A stretch of DNA of 64,000 nt from Candidatus Dormiibacterota bacterium (lineage in GTDB: Bacteria; Acidobacteriota; Polarisedimenticolia; Gp22-AA2). The notes below the pieces were generated by a model. The model ran no database searches. It saw only the letters and a program-made list of their open reading frames with translations, and was not told the origin of the DNA. The stretch spans positions 1-64,000 of the forward strand of contig DASQAT010000055.1 in NCBI GenBank assembly GCA_035635555.1. Direction: 5' to 3'. The position numbers and the translations under genes are program-made. This document shows, piece by piece, positions 9,601 to 36,682 of the stretch (within the stretch, counting starts at the first letter, position 1; every line of letters begins with the position of its first letter).

Positions 9601-11012
9601 CGACCGACCCGAACCCAAACGTCTGCGTCGACAGTAGCTATAATCCCAAATGGGACGCATCGGGCAACCCGAGCTGTCCAATCATCGCACCTACGACGCC
9701 CTGTGACGACACGAACGGGCCTCGCTGCGGCATCGCCGACCGGTCGTTCACGTGCTGGCCAAGGCTCACCGATCCCGTCGGCCAGCAGTATCCCTACAAT
9801 TACCGGTACTTCGTGACAGCCGTGGGCACCCTGCAGGGCGGCTACCCGCAGGCCGAATCGATGCCGTCGGCTGAGAACGCCGCCTGGCTGAACTACTGCT
9901 ATGTCGCGACCTGTCCCGCCACTCCGACGTCCTGCTCCGAGCGACGCGACCCCGATGGCAACGGTGAGTACCTGGTCTGCGGCGGCGAAGACGCTCTCCT
10001 GATGGACCCTGACGGCTCCGGCCGGGTTACAATGACCGATGCCATGACATGCGAAGGGCCGTCGGACGATTCGGGCCTTGACACAGCGATGGCCCCCCGG
10101 CGCGTCATCGGCCAGAGCAACCCTTACAACCCACCTGCTCGATGGATTTTCTACCACCTGGACCACCTTGGGAGCGCCCGCCTCGAGCTCGACGTCAACG
10201 GTGTCTTCGTGGCGCAGCACCACTACCTCCCCTTCGGAGAGGAACGTCCGCCCCAGGTTGACCCGTCCCTTAACACGCACAATTTCACTGGCCACGAGCG
10301 CGACAGGGAGAGTGGGCTGGATTACATGATGGCGAGGTACTACTCCTCCTCTCTCGGCAGGTTCATGGTGGTGGATCCAGGAGATGACACCGATCTCGGG
10401 GATCCTCAGAGCTGGAACAAGTATGCGTACGTCAGGGACAATCCGATCAATCGGTTTGACCCAAATGGTGAGGATGGCTGGGAAGTAGAACGGAAACTGA
10501 AATCAGAGGATGGACCGCCTGTGAGTAGTTCCAAGTTTCTAGCCCATGATTTCGTAGCGGTCACTGGCCCGCCGACTTCGGAGCACCCAAACGGTGTGGT
10601 AACCGACACCGCCAGTTGGAATAATGGGAAGACAAGGATAAGAGATACACATGACATGGGTGTGGCCCAAGAGGCGATCGACCAGGGCCTGGCGAGACAT
10701 GCAACAGGGCCTGAACTTGATGATCAACTCAGAATCGAAATTAATTCCACGACGAACCCAAAGCACCCCTCACACCATATATGGGGGCTTTTCAAGACGT
10801 GCAAAGGTGAAGCGCGCAGACTGCTGAAGGATGCGAAGAAGCATAGTCAACAAGAATCGTCACACGATCCTGAGCAATCAGAAAAGAAGCAGAGCAGGTT
10901 GTTCGACGGCCCCTTCTTCGGGGCAGGCGGACAGCCGAGTCACAGTAACGGGGGATATGTCGATGTCGATGGTACCCATAAGTCGGGCGCGTGCTCAGTC
11001 GAAGCCTTCTAA
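681..11012 (+). CDS. Giant secreted RHS/YD-repeat protein with FN3/Cys-rich insert and C-terminal polymorphic tip
   Basis: The 3443-residue protein starts with a clear signal peptide (cut after about residue 29, ...GALWAQ). Residues about 30-780 form a surface-protein-like N-terminal region with a Cys-rich stretch at about 340-378. RHS/YD repeats (YDALGRVTQV, YDGLGNPI, YDALGNLL) run to about 1625. From about 1630 to 3145 come several fibronectin-III-like modules and further Cys-rich clusters (about 2374-2430 and 2650-2730). The RHS core then resumes with DHLGSARLELD (about 3157), ARYYSSSLGRF and YVRDNPINRFDPNG (about 3250-3264). The last about 178 residues are unrelated and less GC-rich, as expected of a polymorphic toxin tip; I do not recognise that domain. 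In known RHS proteins the repeats form a cage around the tip. Start chosen for its ribosome binding site (AAAGGGG) and signal peptide. Toxicity is inferred from architecture only. Confidence 0.88.
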   Translation: MNKRSARAAARLVPIIWCLTVPLGALWAQNENENVGFRPNHVFESGNFGEDVDILNGGLNMSVSIGQQFLINSRLGHGLKLSYSSKVWDTTYYKTDFISTDQRIVPSTKSPFGIGFSMTMGRIYEDFQFNQNCGSTPHNTCFSRTWTWISPDGVHHTFFFDSDDHVNPPQTREEDGVFFDPAGVFLSFTGRMTTDLSYAKVRGPGNEYCVGTKDDGTAETNCMRVESPDGLVYTLAKRVDCIQPSLDGTGQPTSAYQQIRTDNQNFCGWYTKYIEDPSLYSRVTNNGVTSPYPNNVKVVYDTRPNFQHAIASITDSATRTISFHNCEWWSGGHCSTTTQACNGDSQCPSPQICYTGVCSNNSTQNCSTDAQCPGGQCAPIQTTTIDDMCMTGSKDPATWTASDRSAVATYAVDVPSLANCTDRGCYGSTTFTPSAKATFGFMYEYTRIRRADLDLEGPTQVYTPTPILKLLRLDYPGYIGPGQSNPDLYSLYYGYYNDAPPPGLASGGNGDYGEVTCRTLPLLRKAGSDPVGITANACSQVSSWPPDKRGATFKYSYGYYVYVGKFMQASKHGVSVSITGLSRQMVTKELQLPSGASSGQTWQYKRNTTAFTNPTQVTVSDPLGNDTVYYYHASQSTDNPNVGPDPSDGYAPEWSDGSNFEIDYYRGNAATGRLLQSELQEHDSDLDPQTHAHSKSNVRVKRATKRFVDAGGAESIVSRDQWDGYGHWQTEVESGFNIDVPRRTTTTYQNGAQYVYITGLPRSKEVSDGQRVLSRTENEYDAYGRLTTSIARANLPASIGTPVPANLSTTSTPGDVLTQFTSSTASGNIISKTMSTGRFDDPIYYIKYTYAPSAGNCTTAGECGGYLASKAFTTSLYSLPLFKSIDRDRDANTGLILATRDTAGVQTNYTYDALGRVTQVLPAGEEPTQIAYESLTRTAVTQGTPGTSDLDPAANFVFTRYIYDGLGRQVVTQKRPADISPTDPRFACQKTQYDVAGHVVYKTEWTYQTLTACDALPVPGQNLCTASGINRTTDPGTEFDYSEPGTVPPGVGTCDPFGRVRLNIPADGDRATNTNVTRTDYYGTSQDVTENSIHDAGGTATYSAKTSFIRDAFERLVTVDSPAERRCTSNNVACTTNADCGGATCAVTGGADAYYDYDPLDRLVQVKLSNNLVQTQIRRMDYDGLGNPIWADNPESGTTVYEGYDALGNLLREQHPNGNGAKFRYDFAGRVSEQDFWFAGGDGSVVSGIVGYGYDNTGAGSPYGLGKLSSISRYKGAPNLYQFFQENRYYNGIGGRLSSTTHSFTDFLNFPIETTSYTYDTRGELTSIQYPVATPPNRSILKVNYGYSNGMVVMATEDGQGTALGRLSYNAAGAVASVNMPNGRTETTFDSRNRPKTIKGGAWNGTTWSRDPEYQSGDYNYDGVGNIFQIGSNWYGYDAVNRLITAHTEFQGSIFNETFFYDPFGNMDQRILDQQIPPLPDVVETEAFTYSNPRSNRIMTRQTTIGSSTPSAVNFVYDAAGNLLQGGRRWIPDPTQPAVDDVKKYQYDPINHLVRIQQIGNTSNGGGLAEVDSFEYDASGNRLWKIEKETGIKTYYLRDPSGQVLSEFRTPALDGSGPEWSSDYVYLAGRLLALKENLKPRPPLNLRATLAGQGPGTWRVTLTWDENSEPDKSYYKVYRKVDGTDATFIVVAPPNPPATATYADPTNFVGTKTVHYKVSAVDSSGYESNLSLELKVVTGDTSGPPAPTLTLAEFGDGYIKFTWTVPTDASDIVGYEVDRRLSTANNVPSLPITGQLVKSSTFTDYNLNNGQYYYYRVRAQDAAGNWGPMSCQPGSICDLAASPSDHTPPPPPKGLKVSSTCGTLGTSEKMNLSWEANPPSGSYTVMYEVYRDTAPIYDYRFPPLTSIAGVSTAYYQDPTALTPGTTYYYAVKAYFLNNGSQFISKSPFSKCVAGKIRDSSIIPKLQIFARPKDGSVDISWQIPDPANPPPPSQYLIYRKLNTIDSCVNYVQIQSVTSASGSFTDSGVPNNVAYDYAMTAIVGGVESSFSRPTLAIPLARPFGQYQCRVPDPWGVPADSNSVQWMPPASSFYQPLLASTADGTSSYLKGYHLYHYKLCGRMSGPPVDYQDDSPTREIVTDVARTIDPYLIYKSPTGSNSGYVYQDPRYAINSTQILSPQFNRSDTDNRGRFLYGDCAGTPNFEPNCVMPKAVYKVFAEGTWLTAESDWPDYFDTLNTDPSLRCKTFLHEPTPNFPRCGDNRPTLGDPNFVPPPSKVTAVPAGPGSIRLDWVKPAVSTGRPPIAGYYLYARRNNDTTTFKHPLPFATVGPNETTVTLSGLRPSSYEFSVSSFDTAGHVSGQDYTCRESGSQCEPYAGCTTGGVGICDNTSKPCATQADCSYGVCTVSLASCDSTGTCPAGVCSNNHAVACTPIRFIRAIRGANSGQNWITPVFPTPPAKGNALIAVIGTRGASDSRVSSVTQPGVSWNSTRAVQKTNPNGVTIEIWYALTVNENAGTQVTINLAAQLNANVVIAEYSGILSSSALDQFWSNSNTTKSNNPSTGQTSTTSQGNEIWVGGMANIDTSTYSGQTNGFTERLEAQIQTNPDSTLNNTVLEDLIQSTTGGASVGATLSAKQFWAGAIATFKTVPLESAQCGAGNTCIQQTCDKDVCVGESCEESIGRWCTVHTDFSCTQSSQCPGYYPGQCNISGTTCNAVTPCPTGEVCVPGELCRNVIDLATASPGAQTASPAPPTSLKTVLWTLNDAVLSLKRRNGVKLAWVGVSGATGYRVYRSATPEGPFCALLDSGVNPSPPLPSEAPTRCTSDIPAVWSVDYDAASVSLSTTATNYWDQTVMSDTVYYYRVTTVAGSSETPFSSAYQVRGRELPYDKTTLPPPQGFRAWASQTGGLVDKESVMLKWCAIPTPSGNSPDVLPTVDEYRVYRTKLANGEGVPGTYRLLARLSPACLTAGRCEIRPATDPNPNVCVDSSYNPKWDASGNPSCPIIAPTTPCDDTNGPRCGIADRSFTCWPRLTDPVGQQYPYNYRYFVTAVGTLQGGYPQAESMPSAENAAWLNYCYVATCPATPTSCSERRDPDGNGEYLVCGGEDALLMDPDGSGRVTMTDAMTCEGPSDDSGLDTAMAPRRVIGQSNPYNPPARWIFYHLDHLGSARLELDVNGVFVAQHHYLPFGEERPPQVDPSLNTHNFTGHERDRESGLDYMMARYYSSSLGRFMVVDPGDDTDLGDPQSWNKYAYVRDNPINRFDPNGEDGWEVERKLKSEDGPPVSSSKFLAHDFVAVTGPPTSEHPNGVVTDTASWNNGKTRIRDTHDMGVAQEAIDQGLARHATGPELDDQLRIEINSTTNPKHPSHHIWGLFKTCKGEARRLLKDAKKHSQQESSHDPEQSEKKQSRLFDGPFFGAGGQPSHSNGGYVDVDGTHKSGACSVEAF

Positions 11013-18263: not shown

Positions 18264-21235
18264 CGGGACGACCTGACCTTCTGAAGGAGATCGACCGCGT
18301 CTTTCTGCCCTGGATCGAGCTTGAGCGATTCCTGCAGGTACTGGACCGCCTTCTCCTGCTGGTGGTCCTGCAGGTAGGAGAGGGCCAGGGCGTTGTACAG
18401 CGTCGGTGATTTCGCTCCCTTGGCGCGCGCGGTCTCCAGCGCCTGGATCGCCTCGCGCGACCGGCCGAGACGTCCCTGGGCAGCCCCGAGGTTGACCCAC
18501 GACTCGAGGTTGTCGGGCTCCTTGACGACGGCGCGGCTCAGCACGTCCACGGCATCCTGCAGGCGGCCGTGGCGACCGTACAGGGCGCCGAGGTTCGCCA
18601 TCGTCGCCGCATAGTCCGGGTCGATCACAAGCGCCCGCTTGAAGGTCTCCTCGGCGTGCGGGAAATCCTGCTTCCATTCGTAGATGAGACCCAGCCAGTT
18701 CAGATGGACCAGCGACTTGTCGTTGAGCTCCAGCCCCTTGCGCACGATCGGCTCGATGGTGAGCATCCGGGGCGTGTCCTTGTAGAGCGTGTGCAGGTCG
18801 CTGAGCGGCTCGGACAGCGCCGGGTCGAGCCTCAGGGCCTCGAGGAGCTCCTTCTCGGCCTCGTCCGCCCTCCCCTCCTTCAGAAGAAGCGAGCCGAGGG
18901 CGGCCCGGATCTCCGGCACGTCCGGGTGCTCCGCGCGCTTCTTCTCGAAGTAGCCGATCCCGTCGCGCGCCCGGCCTCCCTCGCGATAGGCGTCCCCGAG
19001 CTGGATGTAGAGCCCGTTGTGATCCGCGGGATTCTTGTCGAGGATCCCCCGCGCGACCTCGATGGCGCGATCGTGGTCCTGGCGCCCCTCCGCGACCTCC
19101 ACCTGCACGAGCAGCGCCTGGATGTACCCCGGTTGCACCTTGAGCGCCTCGTCCACCGCCGCCTGCGCCCGCGCGTAGTCCTTATTCTTCAGGAAGAGGC
19201 CGGCCTCGTTGAGATGCGCCGAGACCAGCGCCTGCCCCTGCCCCTCGTCGGCGACGGCGGAGGGAGACTTATCCGACCCGCCGGCGATGTAACCGAGGTT
19301 GCGGAGGTTCTCGACCAGCTCCTGGTCGGTGCCGCTCGAGGCGACCATCGGCCGGTTCTCCTCGAGCGATCGGCCGACCCCCTCGTAGGACGGCAGGGTG
19401 CGCACGGGAAAACTGCCGAGGAAATCGTCGCGGATCGCCTCCTTGATCACCCGTCCCGGCATGTCCTCGGCGACCGGAAGACCGGCCAGGTACAGCACCG
19501 TCGGCGCGACGTCGAGCAGGCTCGTGGTGTCGAGCTGTCCCGGCTTGATGACCGGCCCGGCGACGATCAGGATCCCGTAGCGCCGGTGCCAGAGACCCGG
19601 CTTTCCTTCGATGTAAGGCGGGTCGTCCTTCGGACGGCTGAGGCCGCTCTGGAATCCGTGGTCCGAGAGGACGAACACCACGGTGTCGGGAGACAGCTTC
19701 GCGAGGATCTCCCCCAGAAGCTGATCCTGGTAGCGGTAGTACCTCTCCACGACTTCATGGTAGCGGGCGAATTCCTCCGCCGTGACCATGTCCATCTTGG
19801 GGGGCATATAATGGGCGAAGCGGTGGCAGACCTCGTCGATCCCCTGGTAATAGATCGAGAAGAGGTCCGGCTGGCCCCGATTCAGGATGTCGAGCGCTAT
19901 CGCCTGGTACGTCCTCTGGCTGGCGAGGATCTTCGTGAGGTGGTTGACCGGCTCGCGATAGGCGCTCTTGGGGTCGTCCTCCACGCGCCGGCGCAGCCCG
20001 GCGAACTCGGCCGGCGTGACCTCGGCGAAGCGCCTGACCTCATCGAGCGTGATCGACCGATCGGACACGATGCGCGGCCGGATCTCCTTGAAATAGCCGT
20101 CCGGCCAGGTGGCGCCGTTCGCCTCCGGCTCGCTCTTGACGAACCCGAACAGGCTGTAGGCGACCCGGTCCGAGACCATGAATCCCTGCACCGGCTCCGA
20201 GGGCCAGGTGGCCCACCAGGCGATGAAGGCGGACGGCCGGCCCGCGTCCGTGAACATGTTCCAGAGCGCCTTCACCCTTCGCCAGCGACTCGAGACCGGC
20301 ACGGCCTTCCCGGTCTTGCGGTCCTCGACCAGGAAATCGACGATGCCGTGCTCCTCGGGCGGCTTCCCCGTCGCCACGCTCGTCCACAGGAGGGGGGACA
20401 GCCACGGCATCATCGTCTTCATGTTCCCCCAGGCGCCGCGCCCCCTCAGCCGCGCCAGGTTCGGCAGCAGCCCCTTCGCGATCAGCGGGTCGATAATTTC
20501 CCAGTCCGCCCCGTCCAGCCCCAGGATGGCGACCTTCACCTTCGTGTCGGACATCCGATCGTGCAGCGCGCGCGCCGTGATCGCCGCCACCGCCGCATCC
20601 GAGCCGCGCGGCCGCTGCAGGCGGAGCGTCACAGACGCGAACCCCTGCCCTTCCAGGCTTTCCTTCAGCTTCGTCTCGACGCCGGCTCCGCCCTGGCCCA
20701 GCACGAGTGACTCGGTCGTGCCGCCGGCGCCCCACTTTGAGACCAGATCCGAGGCGGCGAGGCGCGCCACGTCCTGCGGCGTCCCGCGCCCGCCGCGCGG
20801 ACCCAGGAATGCCGCCAGCGCCTGATCGTCCATCTGGAACGTGACTTCGAAGGGGATTTCGAGGTCGACCCCTTCCCTGCTCCGCACCCGCACCGACGAC
20901 TCAGCGCGGACCGCTCCCTCGGGAACCCTCACCAGACGCTGCAGCAGCGGCACGACGACGTGGCGCCCCGGCGTCAGCCGAGTCGCCGTTCCCGCCAGGG
21001 CGGTGCGCCGGAAGACCCGTTCGCCCGCGTCCACGCGAACGATCGAGGCCCACGCGAGCCATGCGCCCAGCGCGGCGACGAGCAGGGACAGGATGAGCCG
21101 CAGACGGGGTCCGCGGCCGGAAGGCGCGCCCGCTCCGCCGTGCGGAAGACCGACATTCGGCTTCCCGCCCGGAGGGGCGCCGCCGGCGCGCTTTCCGCCC
21201 GAGCGCGAGCTCATCGCGCGCACCGCGCCCGGCAT
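18260..21235 (-). CDS. SPFH/band-7-like, type I phosphodiesterase and TPR fusion protein
   Basis: The 991-residue protein has three parts. Residues about 40-62 are a transmembrane segment, followed by a prohibitin/SPFH-like domain (VDAGERVFRRTALAG, GRHVVVPLLQRLVRV, VDLEIPFEVTFQMDD) to about 225. Residues about 228-620 are an alkaline phosphatase-superfamily/type I phosphodiesterase domain, with the metal-site ILGLDGADW, the TSVATGKPPEEHGI nucleophile-region motif, VFVLSDHGFQSG and a KPGLWHRRYGIL block. Residues about 650-991 are tetratricopeptide repeats. The family hydrolyses phosphate or nucleotide diesters; the substrate here is unknown. The start at 21235 has GGAAGG 9 bases upstream; 21214 is an alternative. 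The longer open frame upstream runs into the divergent gene's promoter region and is not used. The SPFH fusion is unusual. Confidence 0.82.
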   Translation of the reverse strand: MPGAVRAMSSRSGGKRAGGAPPGGKPNVGLPHGGAGAPSGRGPRLRLILSLLVAALGAWLAWASIVRVDAGERVFRRTALAGTATRLTPGRHVVVPLLQRLVRVPEGAVRAESSVRVRSREGVDLEIPFEVTFQMDDQALAAFLGPRGGRGTPQDVARLAASDLVSKWGAGGTTESLVLGQGGAGVETKLKESLEGQGFASVTLRLQRPRGSDAAVAAITARALHDRMSDTKVKVAILGLDGADWEIIDPLIAKGLLPNLARLRGRGAWGNMKTMMPWLSPLLWTSVATGKPPEEHGIVDFLVEDRKTGKAVPVSSRWRRVKALWNMFTDAGRPSAFIAWWATWPSEPVQGFMVSDRVAYSLFGFVKSEPEANGATWPDGYFKEIRPRIVSDRSITLDEVRRFAEVTPAEFAGLRRRVEDDPKSAYREPVNHLTKILASQRTYQAIALDILNRGQPDLFSIYYQGIDEVCHRFAHYMPPKMDMVTAEEFARYHEVVERYYRYQDQLLGEILAKLSPDTVVFVLSDHGFQSGLSRPKDDPPYIEGKPGLWHRRYGILIVAGPVIKPGQLDTTSLLDVAPTVLYLAGLPVAEDMPGRVIKEAIRDDFLGSFPVRTLPSYEGVGRSLEENRPMVASSGTDQELVENLRNLGYIAGGSDKSPSAVADEGQGQALVSAHLNEAGLFLKNKDYARAQAAVDEALKVQPGYIQALLVQVEVAEGRQDHDRAIEVARGILDKNPADHNGLYIQLGDAYREGGRARDGIGYFEKKRAEHPDVPEIRAALGSLLLKEGRADEAEKELLEALRLDPALSEPLSDLHTLYKDTPRMLTIEPIVRKGLELNDKSLVHLNWLGLIYEWKQDFPHAEETFKRALVIDPDYAATMANLGALYGRHGRLQDAVDVLSRAVVKEPDNLESWVNLGAAQGRLGRSREAIQALETARAKGAKSPTLYNALALSYLQDHQQEKAVQYLQESLKLDPGQKDAVDLLQKVRSSR

Positions 21236-21332
21236 CGCAAACGGCCTTCCGGCAACATGTTTCGAGTATAGCACCCGCTCCCGGCCGCCCCCGTCGGCGG
21301 CAGGCACCCCACTTCCCGATATCCAAAAAGTA

Positions 21333-23840
21333 ATGGAATCCCCCCCGGGAGGACGCAATCTTTGTGGCGTGGCGAGCCTGAAGGCGTACGTGCGGCTGTA
21401 CATCTTTTGTGTCTGCGCGGCGGGGGTCGCGGCCCTCGCGGCGTCGTTCGTCCTGGGAGACCGGCCCGCCCTCCTGCCGCTCCTGGTCGCGATCGCGGCG
21501 GCCGTCGTGTCGTCGCCGTTCCGGATACCGCTGCCGGTCCTCGGCAACGTCTCGATCGCCTTCACGTTCGTATTCGCGACCCTGCTCCTGCTCGGCACAC
21601 CGGCCGCCGTCGTGACCGCGGCCATCTCGGGGGTGGCGGCGTCGATCCTGCGGCGCGGCGGGCGCCCTCCGGTCGTGCGCGTCCTGTTCAACGCGGCGGA
21701 GCTGTCCGTCTCGTCGGCCATCGCCGGTCTCATTTTCCACCTGGCTGGCGGCACACCGGGCCCTCTCGACCTTGGACAGGAATGGCCTGCGATCCTCCTG
21801 TCGTCCGCCGCGTTTTTCGTGGCGAACTCGTTCATCGTCGCCGGTGTCGTCAGCCTGACCGACGAGATTCCCCTGCTCGACAACTGGCGGACCAACTTCC
21901 TGTGGACCGGCCCCGGCTACGTGGCGGGGGCCCTCCTGGGGGCGACGCTGACGCTGGGAGTGCAGGGCTTCGGCCTGATGGCCCTGGGCCTGTCGCTGCC
22001 GCTCCTGTACATCCTCTATTTCTCATTGAACCTCTACGCCGAGAGGGTCGCCCAGGACCGCCGGCACGGCCGCCAGATGGCCGACCTCTATCTTTCGGTC
22101 ATCGAGGCGATGGCCCTCGCCATCGACGCGAAGGACCGCACCACCCAGCGGCACATCCGGCGCGTGCAGGCCTATGCGGTCGAGCTGGGCCGGTCGATGG
22201 GGATCTCCGAGGCGGAGCTCGAGGCGCTGAAGGCCGGGTCGCTCTTGCACGACATCGGCAAGCTCGCCGTCCCCGAGCACATCCTGTGCAAGCCCGGCCC
22301 TCTGACCCCCGAGGAGACGGAGAAGATGCGCATCCATCCGCGCATCGGCGTCGAGATCCTCGAGACCATCAACTTCCCCTTCCCTCTCACCGAGGTCGTC
22401 CGGTCGCATCATGAGAAGTGGGACGGCACCGGGTATCCCGACCGTCTCAAAGCAGAGGAGATCCCGATCACCGCCCGCATCCTGTCGGTCGTCGATTGCT
22501 TCGACGCCCTGACGTCCGACCGGCCCTACCGCAAGCCGCTCTCACAGGAGGAGGCGCTGAAGTACGTCGAGAGCGAGGCCGGCACGTCGTTCGATCCCGC
22601 GGTCGTCAAGGCGCTGGTGGGAAACCTCCCCCGGCTCCGCCTCATCGCCGAGGAGATCAACCGCTCGCACGAGACCTCTGCGGCGCCCGACAAGCGGCTC
22701 CTGACCAAGGGAACCGACCGGCTGACGCGGGACACCAACCTGCTGCGGACGTCGATCGTGGACTCGATCCACTCGGCGCAGCGCGAGCTGTTCGCCCTGT
22801 ACGAGGTCGCGCAGAGCACCGCCCGCAGCCTCAATCTCGACGAGGCGATGGGGTTCATCGCCGGCAAGATCGCGCACCTCGTCCATTACCGTTGCATCGT
22901 CCTGTACCTGTACGACGCGGATCGACGGGTCCTGGCTGCCCGCTACGTCCACGGACTGCATTCGCAGCGCCTCGGGCACCACACCATCCCCATGGGGGAG
23001 AGGATGAGCGGCTGGGCGGCGGTGCACCGGATGCCGATCCACGGCGTGGCTCACCAGGACACAGTGCTGCGGGAGGGCGGCCGGTCCGACATCGAAGAGC
23101 TTTTGCCGGACAAGACGCTGGACAGACTGGAGAGCTCGATCGTCGCGCCGCTCCTCGACGGCGACACGCTTCTGGGCGTTCTCGCCCTCTACGATCTCCG
23201 CAGCCGCCCGTACGAGGACGACAACCTGCGCGTCATCTCGATCGTCGCCAAGCACGTCGCCACCGCCGTGCGCAACGCCCTGCAGTACGGAGCCGGCCAG
23301 GGCGCCCTGATCGACCCGCTCACGCGCCTGCCGAACGCCCGGTACCTGTTCGTCTCCTTCGAGGAGGAGATCAGCCGCGCGCTTCGCCAGCAGGTGCCGC
23401 TCAGCATCATCGAGCTCGACGTCGACACCTTCAACGACGTGAACGACAAGCACGGCCACGCCGCCGGCGACCGCATCCTGCGCGAGCTGGCGCGCGTGGT
23501 GCGGGCGCAGCTTCGGGGCTGCGACACCTGCGTGCGCTACGCGGCCGACGAGTTCATCGTCATCGTCCCCGGCGTCGGCCGCCAGGAGGTGACCCGCCTG
23601 CAGAGACGCATCCAGGAGGCGATCGAGGGGCACGACTTCGCGGTCCACGGCGGCCGGCCCGCGCGCCTCTCGGTCAGCATGGGGTCGGCCTCGTTCCCCG
23701 AGGACGGAAAGTCGTTCGAAGCCCTCATCGCCGTCGCCGACGCCCGGATGTACGGGGTCAAATCATCCCGCCGCAAGGGGGATCCGGACGGATCGGGCTA
23801 CCAGCGCTTCACCGGCCGGCGCTCGGTGCCGGTGAACTGA
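21333..23840 (+). CDS. Membrane HD-GYP phosphodiesterase with GAF and degenerate GGDEF domains
   Basis: The 835-residue protein has about six to eight transmembrane helices (residues about 15-220). The HD-GYP domain follows, with SLLHDIGK (about 303) and HHEKWDGTGYP (about 358), all the hallmark residues of an active c-di-GMP phosphodiesterase. A GAF domain covers about 480-650 and a GGDEF domain about 656-810. The GGDEF signature reads AADEF (about 736), so both glycines of the active loop are replaced. The inhibitory-site RxxD (RGCD) lies the expected five residues before it. It therefore probably degrades c-di-GMP and may bind it at the I-site. The ATG at 21333 lacks a clear Shine-Dalgarno; a GTG at 21369 is in frame. 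It is divergent from the SPFH fusion gene. Confidence 0.88.
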   Translation: MESPPGGRNLCGVASLKAYVRLYIFCVCAAGVAALAASFVLGDRPALLPLLVAIAAAVVSSPFRIPLPVLGNVSIAFTFVFATLLLLGTPAAVVTAAISGVAASILRRGGRPPVVRVLFNAAELSVSSAIAGLIFHLAGGTPGPLDLGQEWPAILLSSAAFFVANSFIVAGVVSLTDEIPLLDNWRTNFLWTGPGYVAGALLGATLTLGVQGFGLMALGLSLPLLYILYFSLNLYAERVAQDRRHGRQMADLYLSVIEAMALAIDAKDRTTQRHIRRVQAYAVELGRSMGISEAELEALKAGSLLHDIGKLAVPEHILCKPGPLTPEETEKMRIHPRIGVEILETINFPFPLTEVVRSHHEKWDGTGYPDRLKAEEIPITARILSVVDCFDALTSDRPYRKPLSQEEALKYVESEAGTSFDPAVVKALVGNLPRLRLIAEEINRSHETSAAPDKRLLTKGTDRLTRDTNLLRTSIVDSIHSAQRELFALYEVAQSTARSLNLDEAMGFIAGKIAHLVHYRCIVLYLYDADRRVLAARYVHGLHSQRLGHHTIPMGERMSGWAAVHRMPIHGVAHQDTVLREGGRSDIEELLPDKTLDRLESSIVAPLLDGDTLLGVLALYDLRSRPYEDDNLRVISIVAKHVATAVRNALQYGAGQGALIDPLTRLPNARYLFVSFEEEISRALRQQVPLSIIELDVDTFNDVNDKHGHAAGDRILRELARVVRAQLRGCDTCVRYAADEFIVIVPGVGRQEVTRLQRRIQEAIEGHDFAVHGGRPARLSVSMGSASFPEDGKSFEALIAVADARMYGVKSSRRKGDPDGSGYQRFTGRRSVPVN

Positions 23841-23980: not shown

Positions 23981-29140
<5,160 letters not shown>

Positions 29141-29224: not shown

Positions 29225-29415
29225 TTTGAGACTTTTGCATAATCCATGAGACTAGCGTGTATCAACATCATTGTTTTTCAGTCACTTGCTTGTCGTCTCA
29301 ATTGTCAGCGACTTGAAATTAAGACTGAGACTGGCCGTAACTGACTGGTTATAATGGCCGTTGTAAGCACAGGTTCAGATCGATCGAACTGATTTCGTCT
29401 CAAGACTGTTGAGAC
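29225..29415. promoter_or_regulatory. Cluster of TGAGAC/GTCTCA sites, likely activator binding sites
   Basis: Six copies of TGAGAC or its complement lie in this less GC-rich intergenic stretch: TGAGACT at 29227 and 29247 (exactly 20 bases apart), GTCTCA at 29295, TGAGACT at 29326, and the perfect 19-base inverted repeat GTCTCAAGACTGTTGAGAC at 29397-29415. They lie about 100-300 bases upstream of the -24/-12 promoter at 29507, the usual range for sigma-54 enhancer sites. The likely binders are the Fis-type HTHs of the adjacent kinase-activators; this is inferred from position. A TATAAT at 29350-29355 within the cluster could be an alternative sigma-70 element. Confidence 0.6.
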
Positions 29416-29506
29416 TCACTTGTCGTCATGATTTCCGTTGAAGCTGTCGGCAAGTGTATTTATTTTCAATAACTTGATCCGATATGTCCAAGTACTCTTA
29501 CAAGAT

Positions 29507-29522
29507 TGGCATCACCGTTGCT
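29507..29522 (+). promoter_or_regulatory. Sigma-54 (RpoN) -24/-12 promoter of the GAIWG peptide gene
   Basis: TGGCATCACCGTTGCT matches the RpoN consensus TGGCAYRN4TTGCW at all but the seventh base (C for the purine). The GG (29508-29509) and GC (29520-29521) elements have the exact spacing. The transcription start would be near 29533, giving a 5' leader of about 52 bases before the ATG at 29585. No comparable site was noticed in the other intergenic regions I checked. Sigma-54 promoters need an AAA+ activator, and two are encoded on either side. Confidence 0.8.
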
Positions 29523-29584
29523 CTAAGGATTGGCCGAGGGTATGGGGTAGTGAACAGGCAGTCAACGGAGCGGGGAGGATGGCT

Positions 29585-29827
29585 ATGAAGAGGATGGCGA
29601 AGGTTCTCGTGGTTCTCGTGCTGGCACTGGCGCTCTGCCAGTCGGCGATGGCGGCCCCGACCCAGGGTGCCGCAATGGCGACGGCCAATTCGAACAATTC
29701 TGGCATGTTCGCGCACTTCCTCGGACTTCTCGGCGCGATCTGGGGCGAGCGTGGCGCCATCTGGGGCGACCACGGAGCCATCTGGGGCGGCCACGGGGCC
29801 ATCTGGAGCAATGACGGGGGACACTGA
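29585..29827 (+). CDS. Small secreted peptide with four GAIWGxx heptad repeats
   Basis: The 80-residue product has a classic signal peptide (MKRMAKVLVVLVLALALC, cut after ...QSAMA or nearby). A Gly/Ala/Asn-rich linker follows, then four tandem heptads, GAIWGER, GAIWGDH, GAIWGGH and GAIWSND (residues 50-77), ending GGH. The start at 29585 has GGAGG six bases upstream; an ATG at 29579 is too close to it. It forms its own transcription unit, with a -24/-12 promoter at 29507 and a strong terminator at 29865. I know of no named family. Trp-Gly repeats of the AIWG kind are, from memory, present at the C-termini of some subtilases. A self-assembling, metal-binding or signalling peptide is possible, but function is unknown. 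Confidence 0.8.
   Translation: MKRMAKVLVVLVLALALCQSAMAAPTQGAAMATANSNNSGMFAHFLGLLGAIWGERGAIWGDHGAIWGGHGAIWSNDGGH
29732..29815 (+). repeat. Four 21-base tandem repeats encoding GAIWGxx
   Basis: Four units of 21 bases sit at 29732, 29753, 29774 and 29795. Each begins GGN-GCN-ATC-TGG. The Gly-Ala-Ile-Trp codons are kept in all four while the last two codons of each unit vary (Glu-Arg, Asp-His, Gly-His, Asn-Asp), which suggests selection on the protein repeat. Synonymous differences between units show the array is not a fresh duplication. Confidence 0.85.
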
Positions 29828-29864: not shown

Positions 29865-29896
29865 AGGGAGACCCTGACCGGGTCTCCCTTTTTTTT
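29865..29896 (+). terminator. Rho-independent terminator after the GAIWG peptide gene
   Basis: A perfect 10-base-pair stem (AGGGAGACCC at 29865-29874 with GGGTCTCCCT at 29880-29889) encloses a five-base loop and runs into eight T residues (29889-29896). It closes the peptide transcript 37 bases after its stop and insulates the next gene. Confidence 0.9.
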
Positions 29897-29944
29897 GGCT
29901 TCTGCGTAGTCGCGGTTGACAAATAGTTTTCTGAAATACTACGT

Positions 29945-32900
29945 TTGCCACCCGTGGATTCCTACCCTCGCTTACTCACCTACACGATTCTTGCGAAGCT
30001 GAATGTCGGGTCTCACGCAACCGTCTACCGAGCAAAAGCCTCGTCCGGTGAAGTCTGCGCTTTGAAGGTGTACAGGTCTTCCAGGACGCCGGGGGATCGC
30101 TCGAACGTCGAGCCATCGTCACACTTCCTCCGGGAGTTGGAGGTGCTAGCGACAACATCACACCCCAACCTTGTCAAGCTCACAGACTTCGGCAAGACCC
30201 TGGACGATCGCTCCGACTTCCTCGCAACCGAGTGGGCTGACGGGGAGGACTTTGTCACCGCCTCAAAAAAGGTATCGAGACATCATTTCTATACAATGAT
30301 CAATCAAGTCTGCGCCGGTCTCGATCATATTCATCGCAGGGGCTACGTTCATGGAGACCTGAATCCGAGTAACCTGCAAGTTACAACAAGTTCAGGGTCA
30401 ACGGCATCTGACCTTACGATCACAATCATTGATTTTGGATATGCAATGAGGAACCACACGTCCGCACCTGATGGTGTTCTCGGCAGTCCCCATTACATTG
30501 CCCCCGAAATCATCGAAGGGAGGATATGCAGCTTTGCCGCGGACTTATATTCTTTCGGCGTGATTCTCTATCAATGCATAGCAGGCGTTTTGCCCTTCAC
30601 AGGGACGGACATCGGATCTACTCTCAGGCAGCACGTTCAGCAACCCATTCCGCCTCTCACCGGCCACTCCTTACCAGAGCTACACCAGACTGTCTATCAC
30701 CTATTGTCGAAGGACCCGTCTAGGCGACCTCAATCTGCGATGGACATCTTACGTCTGATGTCGACATCCTCTCCAGACATCCCCTATCGAATTCATACGA
30801 CTCATAGTTGGCTTGGCTTGACAACGTCGGGGCCAACAATCGGCCGTGGTGAAGCCTACGAGAAAGCAATAACCTTCCTTGACAAAGCTCTTCAACCGCA
30901 CTCAACGCCGCAGCAGCATTTAATAGTCGTGGCAGGCTGTCGCGGTATCGGAAAGACGCGTTGCCTTCGGGATATCGCAATTCTCGGACTCAAAGCCGGG
31001 TACAACATTTGCAGACTCAGGCAAGACCCCTCATCAAGAGACGACGTTCGTTTGGTGAATGTGATCAAGCGCGAAGACACACCTCAAGGCGACGCACCAA
31101 CCTTGATAGTCAAGGACGACATCGACTTGGATCTTCTTTCCGCGCTGAGGCGCGAGAGTCCTCCACCCTACCCTCGCACAAGGCCTTCTCACGTTTACGT
31201 CCTAGCCGTAGACAGCTCCACGTATTCCCTTCGTGACATCCTCGCGACCGTCGCTCAACTTGGAGGTCTGTTGCTACAGCTAACCCCCCTCGGCTTGAGA
31301 GACACTGAGCTCCTAATTCAACAGACGCTGGGACTCACAACGGTTGCGCCGGATGTCCTTGACCTGTGCGGCAAGGAAACCGGAGGCAATCCTTGGCTCT
31401 TGTCCAGACTGTTAACGACACTTCTTGACAGCCAGAACCTCGTCATAAAGGGCGGCTCGCTATGTCTGGGAGAAGACTTCACTCAAGCCACCAACACAGA
31501 TGTCATGTCAGAGTATTTGCAACCCGTATGTAGTTCCCTCATCGGCAGCAAGGGCGACCTTGCCTCGCTTCTCGCCGCGTCCGAGTGTCAACTGTCCTTG
31601 GAAGATCTAGCACAGCTCACTGATACCAACCCCTCGGAGATCCGCGAATCCTTCGAAGACCTCGTAGAGCAGGGTGTCTTGATTACCGATCCGGATGACG
31701 TATCGTTGGTACGTTTGGCAAACGGTGTTCTGGCAAAGGCTGTCCTTAGGTCACTTCCCCACTGTGAGAAGCGGGACCTCCACGGTCGCCTCGGCCGCTG
31801 GTACGTTGCTCATCCACAACTAGAAAGAAGTATGGAGCGGGCCGCTCAACATTTCTATGCGGCCGAAATGAAGGAGGAGGCCACGCAATACTCCCTCCTT
31901 GCTGCGCGGGCAGCGGAAGAGCACTGCGATCATCGAGTAGCGGGGATCCTTTATACGCGAGTGTTATCAATGGAGCCCGAGAACCGGGATATACGGACGC
32001 TGGCAACGCTCGGGCTAGCTCGCGTTGAGCACGCGCTCGGGGCTTCCCGAGAGGCCCTTGACCGCTTGAATGGTTTTTCGTTGGTAACCATCTTACCTAC
32101 TGCCACCCTAATCGAGTTGGAGCTTCAGAGATGCAAGGCGGCGGATTTCCTCGGTGACTACTCACAGATGGAGAAGGCAGCGCAGTCTGCTTTCGATCTG
32201 TCTAATGTAGCCTCACTTCATCGAGAGTCAATTGAAGCAACCATCGCTCTCGGCCTTGCCCAATGCCGACTAGGGGATAGGCACAATGGGCTTTCCCGTC
32301 TCATTAGGGCCACCGTCAAGGCTCGCAGACATAACATGACCGACACGCTATCCACAACCCTTGGAGAAATCGCGGCCTGTCATTGGAAGAATGGAGAGTA
32401 TCTGCGCGCGTTGAAATACCAGCGACGATCCGTTGCTCTTCGAGGTGGCCAGCGCCAGGACGTCAAAAGCGCTTTCGCTTCAAGTAGAGTCGGGATTATC
32501 TTGTCTGACCTTGGCATGTATTCCAAGGCAAGAAGCGTTCATACACATGGACGAGGAATTGCAGCCCAACTGGAGGACAGGATATTGGCTGGGATGACGT
32601 GGAATAACATCGGTGAGACCTACAGAGCACAGGGTCGGTGGAAGGCTGCCCTCAAATGTTACAGATCCGCGCTTGAGGTCATGTCAGAGTTGAGAGCTAG
32701 TAGCTGGTCTTTGCCTGTTAACTGCAACATTGCCGATGTCCTCATCAGATCCGGATACTACGCCGGGTCGCACGCGGAGCTGAGAAATCACCTTGCTTTA
32801 TCTCGCCATCAATCTTCTGTTGATTTGACGTGTGATACCTTGAACGCTTGGGCGCTATTGCTATTAATGACTGGCCGTTCGGATCTCTCAGCTCGGATAT

Positions 32901-35053
32901 CCCGTCGAGCATATGGCCTTGGTGAAAATGAACATTTGGATGCCCAAGCGTTTGAATCACAACTGCTGCATTCGCTATCTGTGAGCGCACTCGGGGACCA
33001 CGACCGAGCGCGTGGATCATTGGCTGCGAGTGTAGCACGATTCCATGGACGCACCCCGTTCAGTGGGCAAATTGCCGCTCAACTGGCCGCCATTCAAATC
33101 GACATGGCACTCGGCTTTTCCCCCGAGGCGCTTGAGTACCGCATTGAGCCTGTCCTCAAGACTAGTCGCAAGAAAGGAATGGCGTGGCACACTACGTGGG
33201 CGCTGGTATTGCGAGCGCAGGGTCGGCTCGCTGCCGGACGCACTGAAGAAGCTGAGGCTGACCTGACGGAGGCCATCAAGATTTCGCAGCGAAACGCGGA
33301 TCGGCCGAATGTGTGGAAGGCAAGCTACTGGCTCGGACGGGTGTTCGAGCAGCGGCTGCAATACGAGAGGGCGCTCGGGAGTTACCGGGTGGCCGCGTTA
33401 ACAGTGAACGAGCTTGCTATGGATATCGAGGATGAGCGGTACCGCGAGCCGTTCCTCGGGCAGCCTGAGATCCGTGAGGTCCTCGCCAGGCACGAACGCC
33501 TGCGTAGCCAAGTTGGCAAGAGAGCGCGGCATGACATTGCCGCGATGAGTCGTAGCGAAAAGATCTCGCGCAGGATGCTGAATGCGCTCAACATCATAGG
33601 TCAGAAGCTAACCTCGATTCTCGATCTGAACGACTTGTTGGCGAGTCTGCTGGATCTCTCGATTGAGAACGTCCGGGCGGAAAGGGGCATGGTCTTCCTT
33701 CAGGACGAGGCGAGTGGAGAGCTGCAGCTGGCCTGCGCTCGCGGCATGGATCGGGAGAGTCTGGACGGTGTTGCTTCGTTCAGTCGCTCGGTCATCAAAC
33801 AAGTCGCTGAAGGGCACACCCTCCTCAAGGTCGATGTCGGAACCGACCCAGCCCTGTCCGCATTCAAGAGTCTCGTGATTCACGAGATCAAGTCGATCTT
33901 GTGTGTTCCTATGCGAAACCTTGGCAAGACAGTGGGCGTCATCTATCTCGATACGCGCAAGGCGGCGCAAATGTTCACGGACAAGGAGAGGACCTTCGTG
34001 GAATCATTCGCGAGCCAGGCTGCGATCGCGATTGAGAACGCGCGACAGTTCGGAAACATGCGCGCCGAGAACGACAGACTCAGAAGAGATGTGAAGGGGA
34101 GAAATCGATTCGACAATCTGATCGGTGCTGCACCCGCAATGCACAAGCTCTGTGAGTCGATCTCCGGCGTGCTTTCCAGCGACTGCAATGTGCTCATCGT
34201 CGGAGAGAGCGGCACTGGGAAGGAGCTGGTCGCGAAGGCCATCCACTACAACGGCCCACGTCAAAAGGGGAAGTTCGTCGCGATTGATTGTGGAGCTCTC
34301 CCGGAACATCTACTCGAAGCCGAGCTGTTTGGATTTGTTCGGGGCGCATTTACGGGTGCCGAGAAGACCCGGGTGGGTCTAATTGAGGAGGCGAGCGGCG
34401 GTACGCTCTTCCTCGACGAGATCACGAACACCAGCTTGGCGCTACAGGCGAGACTCCTGCGGGTCTTGCAGGAACACGAGATTCGGCGAGTTGGGGAAAA
34501 CACGCCACGGCAGGTCGATATCCGGGTGCTGGGTGCGACGAACGCCGATATTGGCGCCTTGATGAAGGACGGGAAGTTTCGGACCGACCTGTACTACCGA
34601 CTGAACGTTGTTACCCTTGAAGTTCCGCCACTCCGCGAGCGCCGTGAAGACATACCGCTGCTGGTCGACAACTTCCTCAGGAAGCACGTTCGCGATTCTG
34701 GTAAACCGAGAAGTCTAAGGCCGGGGGTTGTGGAGGCGCTTTGTCGTTATGACTGGCCGGGAAACGTTCGTGAGCTGGAGAACGTCCTGGAGCGCCTCTT
34801 GGTCCTTACGCCAGGCGATGTCATTGTCGTGGACGATCTCCCTGGGATGATCCGCTCTGCGGCAGGGCTCACACCCACGAATGGCAATGGCGACGGTCAC
34901 AAGACCGGGGAGCAAATCATGATCGAGGAGGCCCTGCGGCGCTTCGCGGGCGACAAGGCTAAGGCTGCGCGCTTCATCGGTTGGAACCGCCAGAAGCTCT
35001 ACAGGAAGATGAAAGCGTTCGACATCCCCACCGATTACGGGCAGACCGTGTGA
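29945..35053 (+). CDS. Ser/Thr kinase-AAA-TPR-GAF-sigma-54 activator fusion regulator 2
   Basis: The 1702-residue protein has the same module order as regulator 1. The kinase (about 10-265) has CALKVY, HGDLNPSN (HGD for HRD), IIDFGYA and APE. The AAA domain has Walker A GCRGIGKT near 332. TPRs span about 620-1190 and GAF about 1215-1375. The sigma-54 AAA+ domain has GESGTGKE near 1419, GAFTGA near 1467 and GGTLFLDEI. The HTH ends FIGWNRQKLYRKMKAF. The start is a TTG (29945), with a GTG at 29954 as alternative; neither has a clear Shine-Dalgarno, and a TTGACA at 29916 lies just upstream. Codon use up to about 33.4 kb is much richer in A/T third positions than regulator 1, while the AAA+ end is more GC-rich. 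This suggests separate origins or transfer. It may co-regulate the peptide gene. Confidence 0.92.
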   Translation: MPPVDSYPRLLTYTILAKLNVGSHATVYRAKASSGEVCALKVYRSSRTPGDRSNVEPSSHFLRELEVLATTSHPNLVKLTDFGKTLDDRSDFLATEWADGEDFVTASKKVSRHHFYTMINQVCAGLDHIHRRGYVHGDLNPSNLQVTTSSGSTASDLTITIIDFGYAMRNHTSAPDGVLGSPHYIAPEIIEGRICSFAADLYSFGVILYQCIAGVLPFTGTDIGSTLRQHVQQPIPPLTGHSLPELHQTVYHLLSKDPSRRPQSAMDILRLMSTSSPDIPYRIHTTHSWLGLTTSGPTIGRGEAYEKAITFLDKALQPHSTPQQHLIVVAGCRGIGKTRCLRDIAILGLKAGYNICRLRQDPSSRDDVRLVNVIKREDTPQGDAPTLIVKDDIDLDLLSALRRESPPPYPRTRPSHVYVLAVDSSTYSLRDILATVAQLGGLLLQLTPLGLRDTELLIQQTLGLTTVAPDVLDLCGKETGGNPWLLSRLLTTLLDSQNLVIKGGSLCLGEDFTQATNTDVMSEYLQPVCSSLIGSKGDLASLLAASECQLSLEDLAQLTDTNPSEIRESFEDLVEQGVLITDPDDVSLVRLANGVLAKAVLRSLPHCEKRDLHGRLGRWYVAHPQLERSMERAAQHFYAAEMKEEATQYSLLAARAAEEHCDHRVAGILYTRVLSMEPENRDIRTLATLGLARVEHALGASREALDRLNGFSLVTILPTATLIELELQRCKAADFLGDYSQMEKAAQSAFDLSNVASLHRESIEATIALGLAQCRLGDRHNGLSRLIRATVKARRHNMTDTLSTTLGEIAACHWKNGEYLRALKYQRRSVALRGGQRQDVKSAFASSRVGIILSDLGMYSKARSVHTHGRGIAAQLEDRILAGMTWNNIGETYRAQGRWKAALKCYRSALEVMSELRASSWSLPVNCNIADVLIRSGYYAGSHAELRNHLALSRHQSSVDLTCDTLNAWALLLLMTGRSDLSARISRRAYGLGENEHLDAQAFESQLLHSLSVSALGDHDRARGSLAASVARFHGRTPFSGQIAAQLAAIQIDMALGFSPEALEYRIEPVLKTSRKKGMAWHTTWALVLRAQGRLAAGRTEEAEADLTEAIKISQRNADRPNVWKASYWLGRVFEQRLQYERALGSYRVAALTVNELAMDIEDERYREPFLGQPEIREVLARHERLRSQVGKRARHDIAAMSRSEKISRRMLNALNIIGQKLTSILDLNDLLASLLDLSIENVRAERGMVFLQDEASGELQLACARGMDRESLDGVASFSRSVIKQVAEGHTLLKVDVGTDPALSAFKSLVIHEIKSILCVPMRNLGKTVGVIYLDTRKAAQMFTDKERTFVESFASQAAIAIENARQFGNMRAENDRLRRDVKGRNRFDNLIGAAPAMHKLCESISGVLSSDCNVLIVGESGTGKELVAKAIHYNGPRQKGKFVAIDCGALPEHLLEAELFGFVRGAFTGAEKTRVGLIEEASGGTLFLDEITNTSLALQARLLRVLQEHEIRRVGENTPRQVDIRVLGATNADIGALMKDGKFRTDLYYRLNVVTLEVPPLRERREDIPLLVDNFLRKHVRDSGKPRSLRPGVVEALCRYDWPGNVRELENVLERLLVLTPGDVIVVDDLPGMIRSAAGLTPTNGNGDGHKTGEQIMIEEALRRFAGDKAKAARFIGWNRQKLYRKMKAFDIPTDYGQTV

Positions 35054-35132
35054 TACTGTGTGACACTGCAGGCGGCCGATTTCCACAATGGGACACATCG
35101 ACCGTCGCTGATTGAGTGACACTTGGTGTCAC
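35048..35132. promoter_or_regulatory. GTGACAC palindrome and 10-base tandem repeat, likely regulator sites
   Basis: GTGTGATACT (35048) and GTGTGACACT (35058) are near-identical 10-mers in direct tandem, overlapping the stop of regulator 2. Fifty bases on, GTGACAC-TTG-GTGTCAC (35116-35132) is a perfect 17-base inverted repeat. Shared TGAYAC cores suggest one DNA-binding protein recognises all three. Candidates are the very similar Fis-type HTHs of regulator 2 and of the next activator gene. No -24/-12 element is seen nearby. Confidence 0.5.
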
Positions 35133-35349
35133 CCCGCCGATCCCTCGGCGCATCCGCAAGCAAGTAAAGGCCCTGCTCCCACTCAAGATAGTCATCGCAC
35201 TCTCTGTCTTCACTGGTACCACAATTGCTTTGTTCAGCCCCACCACCGGCCGGGAAGCAAATTCATTTGGGCGCACAGGCACCGAATTGAGAGCCGTGTC
35301 CATGGCCGGGGAAATGAAGCAGAAGGAGAAAACGCTGGATGACAACTGA
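35116..35349 (+). CDS. Possible small membrane or secreted peptide between two activator genes
   Basis: This 77-residue frame starts with GTG inside the GTGACAC palindrome, immediately after an in-frame stop. It encodes a basic N-terminus (RRIRKQVK), a hydrophobic stretch (IVIALSVFTGTTIALF) and a polar tail. Its stop overlaps the start of the next activator gene by 11 bases, which would allow coupling. There is no Shine-Dalgarno before the GTG and no recognised family, so it may be non-coding. Its position echoes that of the GAIWG peptide between regulators 1 and 2. Confidence 0.35.
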   Translation: MTLGVTPPIPRRIRKQVKALLPLKIVIALSVFTGTTIALFSPTTGREANSFGRTGTELRAVSMAGEMKQKEKTLDDN

Positions 35350-36682
35350 TCCGCACAAGAGGTTGGACCTAGATGCCTGGCTTCAGGATCTTCGAAGGCT
35401 GGGTGGACAGGCGCGAACACTGAGTGAGCGGCACGAGTCACTGAAAAGCCTCATGGATCTCGCCGACCTGCGGATGCTCGAGGAAGCGACTAAGCGCATC
35501 ATCGTCACGCTGAGCAGGAAGGCTCTTTATGGGCTTCCTCAGGCACGTGGCCCCGAGGGCGCAAGTCGCGCGGGCAGTCCCCGCCCGGTTGGGAGTCTCG
35601 AGTCGATCCTTACGCTGCCGAACAGCGGCACCACGATTGCTGATTACGGTTTGGCCTCCCATGAGGAAGAGGGGGGATCAAGGGGCCCAATCGTGGCGAC
35701 GATCCTTGGTCAGGATGGCTCCGACGGCATCATCGGGTCGACCGAAAGCATGCGACGCGTTCATCATCTCATCACGAAGGCAGCTGCTTGCACTCTGCCA
35801 GTGCTGATCCAGGGAGAAAGTGGGACGGGAAAGGAGTTGGTGGCACGGGCCATCCACCAGAAATCGGGGCGCCAGACTCAACGATTCTTCTCAGAGAACT
35901 GTTCCGCGATCTCCGAGAGCCTGCTGGAGTCGGAGCTGTTCGGTCATGTCCGCGGAGCGTTCACGGGTGCCGATCGCGACCGCAAGGGGATCCTCGAGCT
36001 GGCGCACGGCGGCACTCTTTTCCTCGACGAAATCGGCGACATGAGTGTGAGAATGCAAAGCAAGCTTCTGCGCGCCTTGCAAGAACGGGAGGTCCGTCCG
36101 GTAGGTGGGAAGGAGACCATCCGCGTCGATGTCAGGATCGTTTCCGCGACTAACCGCAGTCTCCACGGTTTGATCAAAGAAGGGACGTTTCGCGAAGATC
36201 TTTTTTATCGCATCAACGTCATCACCGTCGACCTGTCACCTCTGCGCGATCGCAAAGAGGATATCCCGGCCCTGGTCGATCATTTTCTGGACCGCATTGC
36301 AGCGGAGACCGCCCTAGCACGTCGAGCGTTCTCCTGCGGCGCCCTCGAACTGTTGGGGGAGTACGATTGGCCCGGCAATATTCGGGAATTGGAAAACGTC
36401 GTGCAGCGGGCGGTTGCATTGAGCGAGAGCGACCGGATTGATGCTACCGAGCTCCCGGACCGCATCCGCCACGTGATGATCACCGAGGAATCGCGAGAGT
36501 ACTCGGGCGCGGGCAAGGGCGGCGAGCAGCTCATGATCGAGAAAGCCCTCCACAATTCCGAGGGCGACAAGACGCAGGCAGCTCGCTTTATCGGCTGGTC
36601 ACGTCCCAAACTCTATCGTCGCATGCGCCACTTCGGAATTCCGATCCAGTTTGGACGCCGGTCCCTGAAATCTCGGAGCTGA
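35339..36682 (+). CDS. Stand-alone sigma-54-dependent transcriptional activator
   Basis: The 447-residue protein has an N-terminal about 130-residue region without a recognised sensory domain. The sigma-54 AAA+ domain follows, with GESGTGKE (about 160), GAFTGA (about 208), the Walker B block GGTLFLDEIGD and an arginine-finger region. The C-terminal Fis-type HTH is ARFIGWSRPKLYRRMRHFGIP. This HTH closely matches the end of regulator 2 (ARFIGWNRQKLYRKMKAFDIP), so both probably bind the same DNA sites. The gene follows regulator 2 with AAGGAG before the ATG. It lacks kinase, TPR and GAF parts, so it may be controlled by protein contacts or may heteromerise with regulator 2. Confidence 0.93.
   Translation: MTTDPHKRLDLDAWLQDLRRLGGQARTLSERHESLKSLMDLADLRMLEEATKRIIVTLSRKALYGLPQARGPEGASRAGSPRPVGSLESILTLPNSGTTIADYGLASHEEEGGSRGPIVATILGQDGSDGIIGSTESMRRVHHLITKAAACTLPVLIQGESGTGKELVARAIHQKSGRQTQRFFSENCSAISESLLESELFGHVRGAFTGADRDRKGILELAHGGTLFLDEIGDMSVRMQSKLLRALQEREVRPVGGKETIRVDVRIVSATNRSLHGLIKEGTFREDLFYRINVITVDLSPLRDRKEDIPALVDHFLDRIAAETALARRAFSCGALELLGEYDWPGNIRELENVVQRAVALSESDRIDATELPDRIRHVMITEESREYSGAGKGGEQLMIEKALHNSEGDKTQAARFIGWSRPKLYRRMRHFGIPIQFGRRSLKSRS

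Follow-up and report, generated by a model that had tools for sequence, protein, structure and literature searches.

A small gene in the 64-kb stretch of acidobacterial DNA analysed here (the window) appears to encode a kinase-controlled, exported peptide that is built from several copies of a short motif and would have an extracellular role, most likely that of a peptide signal or ligand; this reading is given a probability of about 0.4. The anatomy of the gene and its control signature are well supported by the sequence, and it is from these that we infer the function. As proposed, two large activators, EBP1 and EBP2, either singly or together, would sense a cue through their kinase, TPR and GAF parts, bind the TGAGAC boxes upstream of the gene and fire its promoter with sigma-54 RNA polymerase. 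The pre-peptide would then be exported by the Sec route and cleaved after AMA, leaving a repeated extracellular motif (GAIWG here), in several copies, as the functional unit, most likely a signal or ligand whose sequence is lineage-specific. On this view the cassette, which links kinases to sigma-54 control, would be devoted to producing the peptide. Should the cassette work as proposed, the Acidobacteriota, a major and poorly studied soil phylum, would gain an exported-peptide system that can be recognised from sequence and that comes with its own set of candidate signals. A sequence-only reading of the locus preceded this analysis; the activator genes with their kinase domains, the sigma-54 promoter with its boxes and the lineage-specific exchange of motifs are all new relative to it.

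The peptide gene and its control region

Translation of 29585-29827 on the plus strand gives MKRMAKVLVVLVLALALCQSAMAAPTQGAAMATANSNNSGMFAHFLGLLGAIWGERGAIWGDHGAIWGGHGAIWSNDGGH*, in which a signal peptide is followed by a linker, a short hydrophobic stretch (GMFAHFLGLL), four heptads and, after the last of these, GGH (Table 1); an in-frame ATG at 29579 offers an alternative start. The sequence-only reading had described four Trp-containing heptads behind a signal peptide and these were confirmed, with G-A-I-W invariant and Ser in place of the following Gly in the fourth unit; the His residues that it had noted in the second and third repeats and as the final residue are likewise present in the translation. 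The heptads are visible in the DNA as 21-nt units that vary at synonymous positions (GGC/GGA/GGG, GCG/GCC), which, together with the AIWG homologues and the bracketing of the ORF by promoter and terminator, argues that the repeat is more than chance. Terminator-like stem-loops were also seen by inspection 3' of the peptide gene in three relatives (G005, G006 and G008). In sum, 29585-29827 looks like a real gene for a Sec-type exported repeat peptide. Pfam gave no match for the window peptide, including no PF00082 domain, and NCBIfam gave none for it or for the three exchanged peptides described below. A single-sequence AlphaFold model consists of one long helix across residues 36-76, albeit at low confidence (pLDDT 70, pTM 0.34). 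A second match in the same genome (L002) was rejected as a chance match in an unrelated operon.

Table 1. Features of the peptide locus and its neighbours in the window
Feature	Position	Strand	Basis or remark
HD-GYP/GAF/GGDEF protein, c-di-GMP turnover enzyme type	20841..23840	+	Pfam HD_5, GGDEF, GAF; start codon uncertain
EBP1, 1719 aa, Ser/Thr kinase - AAA_16 - TPR - GAF - Sigma54_activat - HTH_8	23981..29140	+	Pfam
Six GTCTCA/TGAGAC boxes, proposed upstream activator sites	29227..29415	+	
Sigma-54 -24/-12 promoter TTGGCATCACCGTTGCT	29506..29522	+	sole strict match in the 64-kb window
Shine-Dalgarno GGGGAGG	29572..29578	+	sequence
Pre-peptide with GAIWG heptads, 80 aa	29585..29827	+	translation, homologues
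Signal peptide, residues 1-23, proposed cut between AMA and AP	29585..29653	+	inspection; A23, A24, P25 invariant in homologues
Four heptads GAIWGER GAIWGDH GAIWGGH GAIWSND, residues 50-77	29732..29815	+	
Intrinsic terminator AGGGAGACCCTGACCGGGTCTCCCT + T tract (stem 29865-29889)	29865..29897	+	called strong
EBP2, 1702 aa, kinase - AAA - TPR - GAF - Sigma54_activat - HTH_8	29945..35053	+	TTG start uncertain
Sigma-54-like site CTGGTACCACAATTGCT upstream of EBP3	35213..35229	+	same position in G003, G001
EBP3, 447 aa, stand-alone Sigma54_activat - HTH_8	35339..36682	+	Pfam

The promoter lies directly upstream of the pre-peptide ORF, and the six boxes (at 29227, 29247, 29295, 29326, 29397 and 29410, all within 190 bp) stand between it and the upstream gene, about 100-280 bp upstream. 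Among all hexamers of five such upstream regions GTCTCA ranked first with 17 copies, while in 60 shuffled sets the top count of any hexamer averaged 6.7 and reached 13 at most. Six loci outside the discovery set carry two to three boxes each, 15 in total against 0.92 expected (mean of 3,000 shuffles, maximum 5). In 10 of the 11 loci a distance of 96-137 bp separates the box nearest the promoter from the -24 element downstream of it, a usual spacing for sigma-54 activator sites. Meanwhile, 22 of the 24 sigma-54-like sites of the window genome have no box, and the full signature is found at the peptide's site only. A search with a three-box pattern returned no match, the pattern having required one strand and closer spacing than the window boxes have. 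Locus L074 (C35:359702) was rejected as a regulon member, as its three boxes adjoin neither a convincing exported gene nor an activator. Three features of sigma-54/EBP-controlled genes are present at the peptide, i.e. a -24/-12 element, repeated sites 80-300 bp upstream and an activator with a Sigma54_activat domain and GAFTGA loop. The TGAGAC boxes are well supported by sequence as the regulatory signature of the cassette and are its putative activator sites.

Elsewhere in the window genome, at locus L090 (contig C35, 8929-11081), two short ORFs for exported products with Cys residues have three GTCTCA/TGAGAC boxes in their vicinity, as well as a sigma-54-like site GTGGCATTCCTATTGCT; no activator gene lies nearby.

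Exchange of products under one control signature

The cassette arrangement recurs in several families of one Acidobacteriota class. Many of the genomes are fragmented, and in G001, G003 and G004 the contig is interrupted at EBP1 or at the peptide gene. GAIWG peptides were found in four genomes, plus one (G001) in which the same leader is present and the contig ends before the repeats. Within the family of the window genome, G005 has about one and a half motifs (GAVWNGSIWG) and G006 has eight SAIWGGKD octads; in G005, G006 and G001 alike an activator gene precedes the peptide gene, which has boxes and its own -24/-12 site (CTGGCATCTCAGTTGCT, a weaker TTGGCATCGACGCTGCA and CTGGCATTGCCGTTGCT, respectively). 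In another family of the order, G008 encodes an exported peptide of 99 aa, in which GAIWG(G) occurs three times, behind the site TTGGCACTCGCATTGCC and before EBP2 and EBP3, and further cassettes hold equivalent sites. Repetition and export, both claimed from the first sequence alone, have held up in these comparisons, as AIWG-bearing homologues with conserved repeats exist in related genomes and a signal peptide was recognised in the window genome (G000), G001, G005, G006 and G008. The same cannot be said of metal binding, which the sequence-only reading had proposed from the His residues of the window copy (repeats 2 and 3, C-terminal end), or of metal-nucleated self-assembly: the SAIWGGKD repeats of G006 and the GAIWGG motifs of G008 have no His and G005 has one (SIWGHC), so that the residues are not conserved and this function appears highly improbable. 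Signalling, also among the proposals of that reading, is the interpretation preferred here.

In other lineages the motif itself is different. In G022 boxes and a -24/-12-like site come after an activator gene and before the gene for an exported peptide of 130 aa, in which NIGGAGP occurs five times, and G018 has two such loci, encoding exported peptides with five copies of GLGIGS and two of GLGGCxFGC. In two further genomes the slot holds an enzyme gene, a subtilase with an ALWGD-type tail interrupted by a contig end in G016 and a subtilase with around 15 TAVWGD repeats, spread over two reading frames in the assembly, in G012. Judged by the predicted products, it is the exported product that changes across lineages, under a constant control signature. 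That lineages differ in motif, in export route and in the enzyme attached but share a constant promoter signature amounts to a natural experiment and suggests that selection keeps the exported motif itself. Furthermore, the short motifs are kept and the spacers vary in length and sequence in G022, G018 and G008, which we take to be more in keeping with a ligand in multiple copies than with a structural repeat of regular build, and this, along with the swapping of motifs between lineages, favours an extracellular multi-copy signal or ligand. In locus L145 (4644-5075), the exported peptide has GLGGCVFGC near its mature start and GLGGCFFGC at its end, and these motifs could form disulfide-linked hairpins.

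An extracellular matrix or surface protein, in which Trp-Gly repeats bind polysaccharide or each other as a component of biofilm or floc under sigma-54 and c-di-GMP control, is the main rival and not far behind, if itself on the unlikely side. The precedent is PepA of Aquincola, an RpoN-dependent small exported PEP-CTERM protein with a role in aggregation, regulated by PrsK/PrsR (PMC9850573). The HD-GYP/GGDEF protein encoded upstream is a fitting neighbour for such a role, and the repeats are expandable, reaching eight SAIWGGKD units in G006 and about 22 hexads on the subtilase of G024. However, repeat length (6, 7 or 8 residues) and motif identity differ completely among lineages, the spacers lack regularity, the 28-aa product of G003 contains AIW just once, and none of the cassette genes seen is an exopolysaccharide gene. 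The signal or ligand reading in turn has to contend with TPR being a general protein-binding fold, with the need of a cytoplasmic receptor for peptide import, with regulators that may answer to something unrelated to the peptide, and with a structural or adhesive role that would account about equally for the repeats, the export and the c-di-GMP neighbours.

The sister species G003 presents a further variation. Boxes and a near-consensus sigma-54 site CTGGCATCCGTCTTGT precede a 28-codon ORF MKVETDVKAGGAIWVGDGRGNHNETIVG, whose product reads MKVETDVKAGG-AIWVGDGRGNHNETIVG, and the genes that follow encode a TPR protein, HlyD and a Peptidase_C39-ABC transporter (PF03412, E 2.4e-20, and PF00005), then EBP2 and EBP3. 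Against the double-Gly leader consensus of L-12, E-8, L-7 and GG (PMC6363468), the leader has GG and E(-8) and lacks L(-12) and L(-7), a match in part only that counts against the signal reading. In G003 the Sec-signal AIW peptide is thus replaced by one that looks fit for a peptide-processing ABC exporter. The C39-ABC and HlyD genes, along with amphipathic stretches seen by inspection (e.g. GMFAHFLGLL), also fit a microcin- or bacteriocin-like antimicrobial peptide, with an amphipathic helix and Trp-rich repeats exported via Sec or a C39 ABC transporter, but such a role is distinctly unlikely, as the examined cassettes show neither an immunity gene nor a modification enzyme next to the peptide, a set of several regulators would be unusual for a single peptide and there is no family match.

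Relationship to AIWG-tailed subtilases

Of the 41 class genomes, 8 have AIWG codon pairs, as do 2 of the 355 others in the phylum, and the class matches examined, besides the peptides, are tails of S8 subtilases (PF00082). The statement in the sequence-only reading that AIWG-like repeats occur at the ends of some subtilases is therefore borne out within the same class. In G024 and G028, which belong to two other families, an AIWG-tailed subtilase occupies the syntenic slot of the peptide. The order in G028 is HD-GYP/GGDEF, AIWG subtilase, ChaN-like gene, SelB and sigma factor, and that in G024 is similar, while the window has HD-GYP/GGDEF, EBP1, peptide, EBP2, EBP3, other genes and then the same ChaN-like gene, SelB and sigma factor. 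Upstream of the subtilases there are three boxes in G028 and five in G024, and with these counts the view that subtilases away from EBPs lack the signature was dropped for both genomes; no box cluster was found upstream of the subtilases of G015 and G017.

On the shared gene order and the boxes, the peptide is the positional counterpart of the AIWG subtilase; it is probably a tail-only counterpart of the enzyme in the same slot and may even descend from it by retention of the tail alone. Membership of the same regulon would offer an explanation for the AIWG tails of the subtilases of the class. The common repeat, boxes and slot would also suit a partner or decoy of an AIWG-tailed subtilase, in which case the peptide, as a stand-alone tail, would compete for the site at which such proteases are anchored, exported or matured, or would itself be a protease substrate. 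This is unlikely, since with a strict two-motif pattern the window genome and G006 have AIWG pairs in the peptide only, so that no cognate subtilase is evident in either, albeit looser tails such as TAVWGD would escape the pattern, and since NIGGAGP and GLGIGS of other lineages are unrelated repeats. The subtilases resemble the peptide in the repeated motif, in boxes and slot (G024, G028) and in the cassette (G012, G016), whereas they differ in having a full PF00082 protease domain and 6-residue repeats, about 22 of them in G024.

Regulators and comparison with known systems

The peptide gene sits between EBP1 and EBP2, with EBP3 next, and PF00158 is found in all three, the GAFTGA loop being found in the regulator translations. 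Relatives of EBP1 are present in 26 of 41 class genomes (E<=1e-60), relatives of EBP2 occur in the same place in G003, G005 (partial), G006 and G008, and those of EBP3 in G003, G006 and G008 and, by position and sequence, in G001. The HD-GYP/GAF/GGDEF gene lies directly upstream of EBP1; relatives of its product are encoded upstream of the activator in G001, G003, G005 and G016, GGDEF proteins precede the activator in G006 and G012, and one adjoins the AIWG subtilase in G028.

Several described systems share parts of this arrangement. PepA is likewise small and exported, its gene has a sigma-54 promoter and its context is TPR- and aggregation-related, but the window regulators are Ser/Thr kinase-AAA-TPR-GAF-EBP fusions and not a PrsK/PrsR pair; EBP1 scores 314 bits with the PEP-CTERM response-regulator model against 503 required. 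PEP-CTERM identity was rejected for the peptide, whose C-terminus (GAIWSNDGGH) has no PEP motif, TM helix or Arg-rich end. As in an RRNPP pair (PMC10075063), a small exported peptide gene adjoins a TPR-bearing regulator, but the candidate receptor here is a sigma-54 activator of ~1,700 aa as opposed to 250-500 aa, and the host is not Gram-positive. Double-Gly C39-exported peptides (PMC6363468) resemble the short GG-AIW peptide of G003 with its Peptidase_C39-ABC and HlyD, whereas in the window the peptide carries a Sec signal and its cassette has no ABC exporter. The kinase/cyclase fusion of TOMM systems, TOMM_kin_cyc (TIGR03903), has a kinase-AAA-type N-terminus beside a small peptide gene, yet the match stands at 179.5 bits against a cut-off of 705.75, a sigma-54 activator output replaces the cyclase and there are no TOMM enzymes. 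A RiPP precursor with neighbouring maturases was also rejected, as no maturation-enzyme domain was found among the cassette genes scanned and the neighbours are regulators.

The literature search found no paper with the AIWGD motif, AIWG appeared only as a medical abbreviation among the matches listed, and no paper linking Acidobacteria, sigma-54, enhancer binding protein and regulon was found. The evidence points to the window peptide and the exchanged peptides being an undescribed family of secreted repeat peptides. More tentatively, and with the odds against it, they may belong to an undescribed peptide-signalling system of the Acidobacteriota, in which Ser/Thr-kinase-TPR-sigma54 activators are paired with Sec- or C39-exported precursors with multiple copies of a short, lineage-specific motif (AIWG, NIGGAGP, GLGIGS, GLGGCxFGC); these would have arisen from the repeat tail of a secreted subtilase or be exchangeable with it.

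The activator genes may be under similar control themselves. A sigma-54-like site precedes EBP3, and CTGGTA(C/T)CRC..TTGC is conserved at an equal distance before the gene in three genomes (the window, L158 of G003 and L159 of G001); EBP3 itself may be driven by sigma-54, and this conservation suggests a regulatory cascade. The small ORF at 35116-35349 that overlaps the site is not conserved. In the other family of the order, GTCTCA pairs exactly 55 bp apart sit upstream of the EBP1 gene itself (L123, 2124 and 2179; L125, 2022 and 2077; L126, 1805 and 1860), which suggests EBP1 autoregulation there.

EBP2 and EBP3 have a low third-position GC (0.62 and 0.69, against 0.92 for EBP1), and the contrast is repeated for EBP2 in G006 and, with both genes, in G008. 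A second subfamily of kinase-EBPs (L133, L139, L140, L141 and L149) mostly has no TGAGAC boxes nearby; a sigma-54-like site such as CTGGCACGGGGGTTGCT follows the EBP gene and, in most cases, an exported-looking protein of ~150 aa and a protein of ~1,150-1,400 aa come next, so this is perhaps another conserved cassette. Further upstream in the window, 681-11012 encodes a 3,443-aa ORF with an fn3 domain and RHS repeats.
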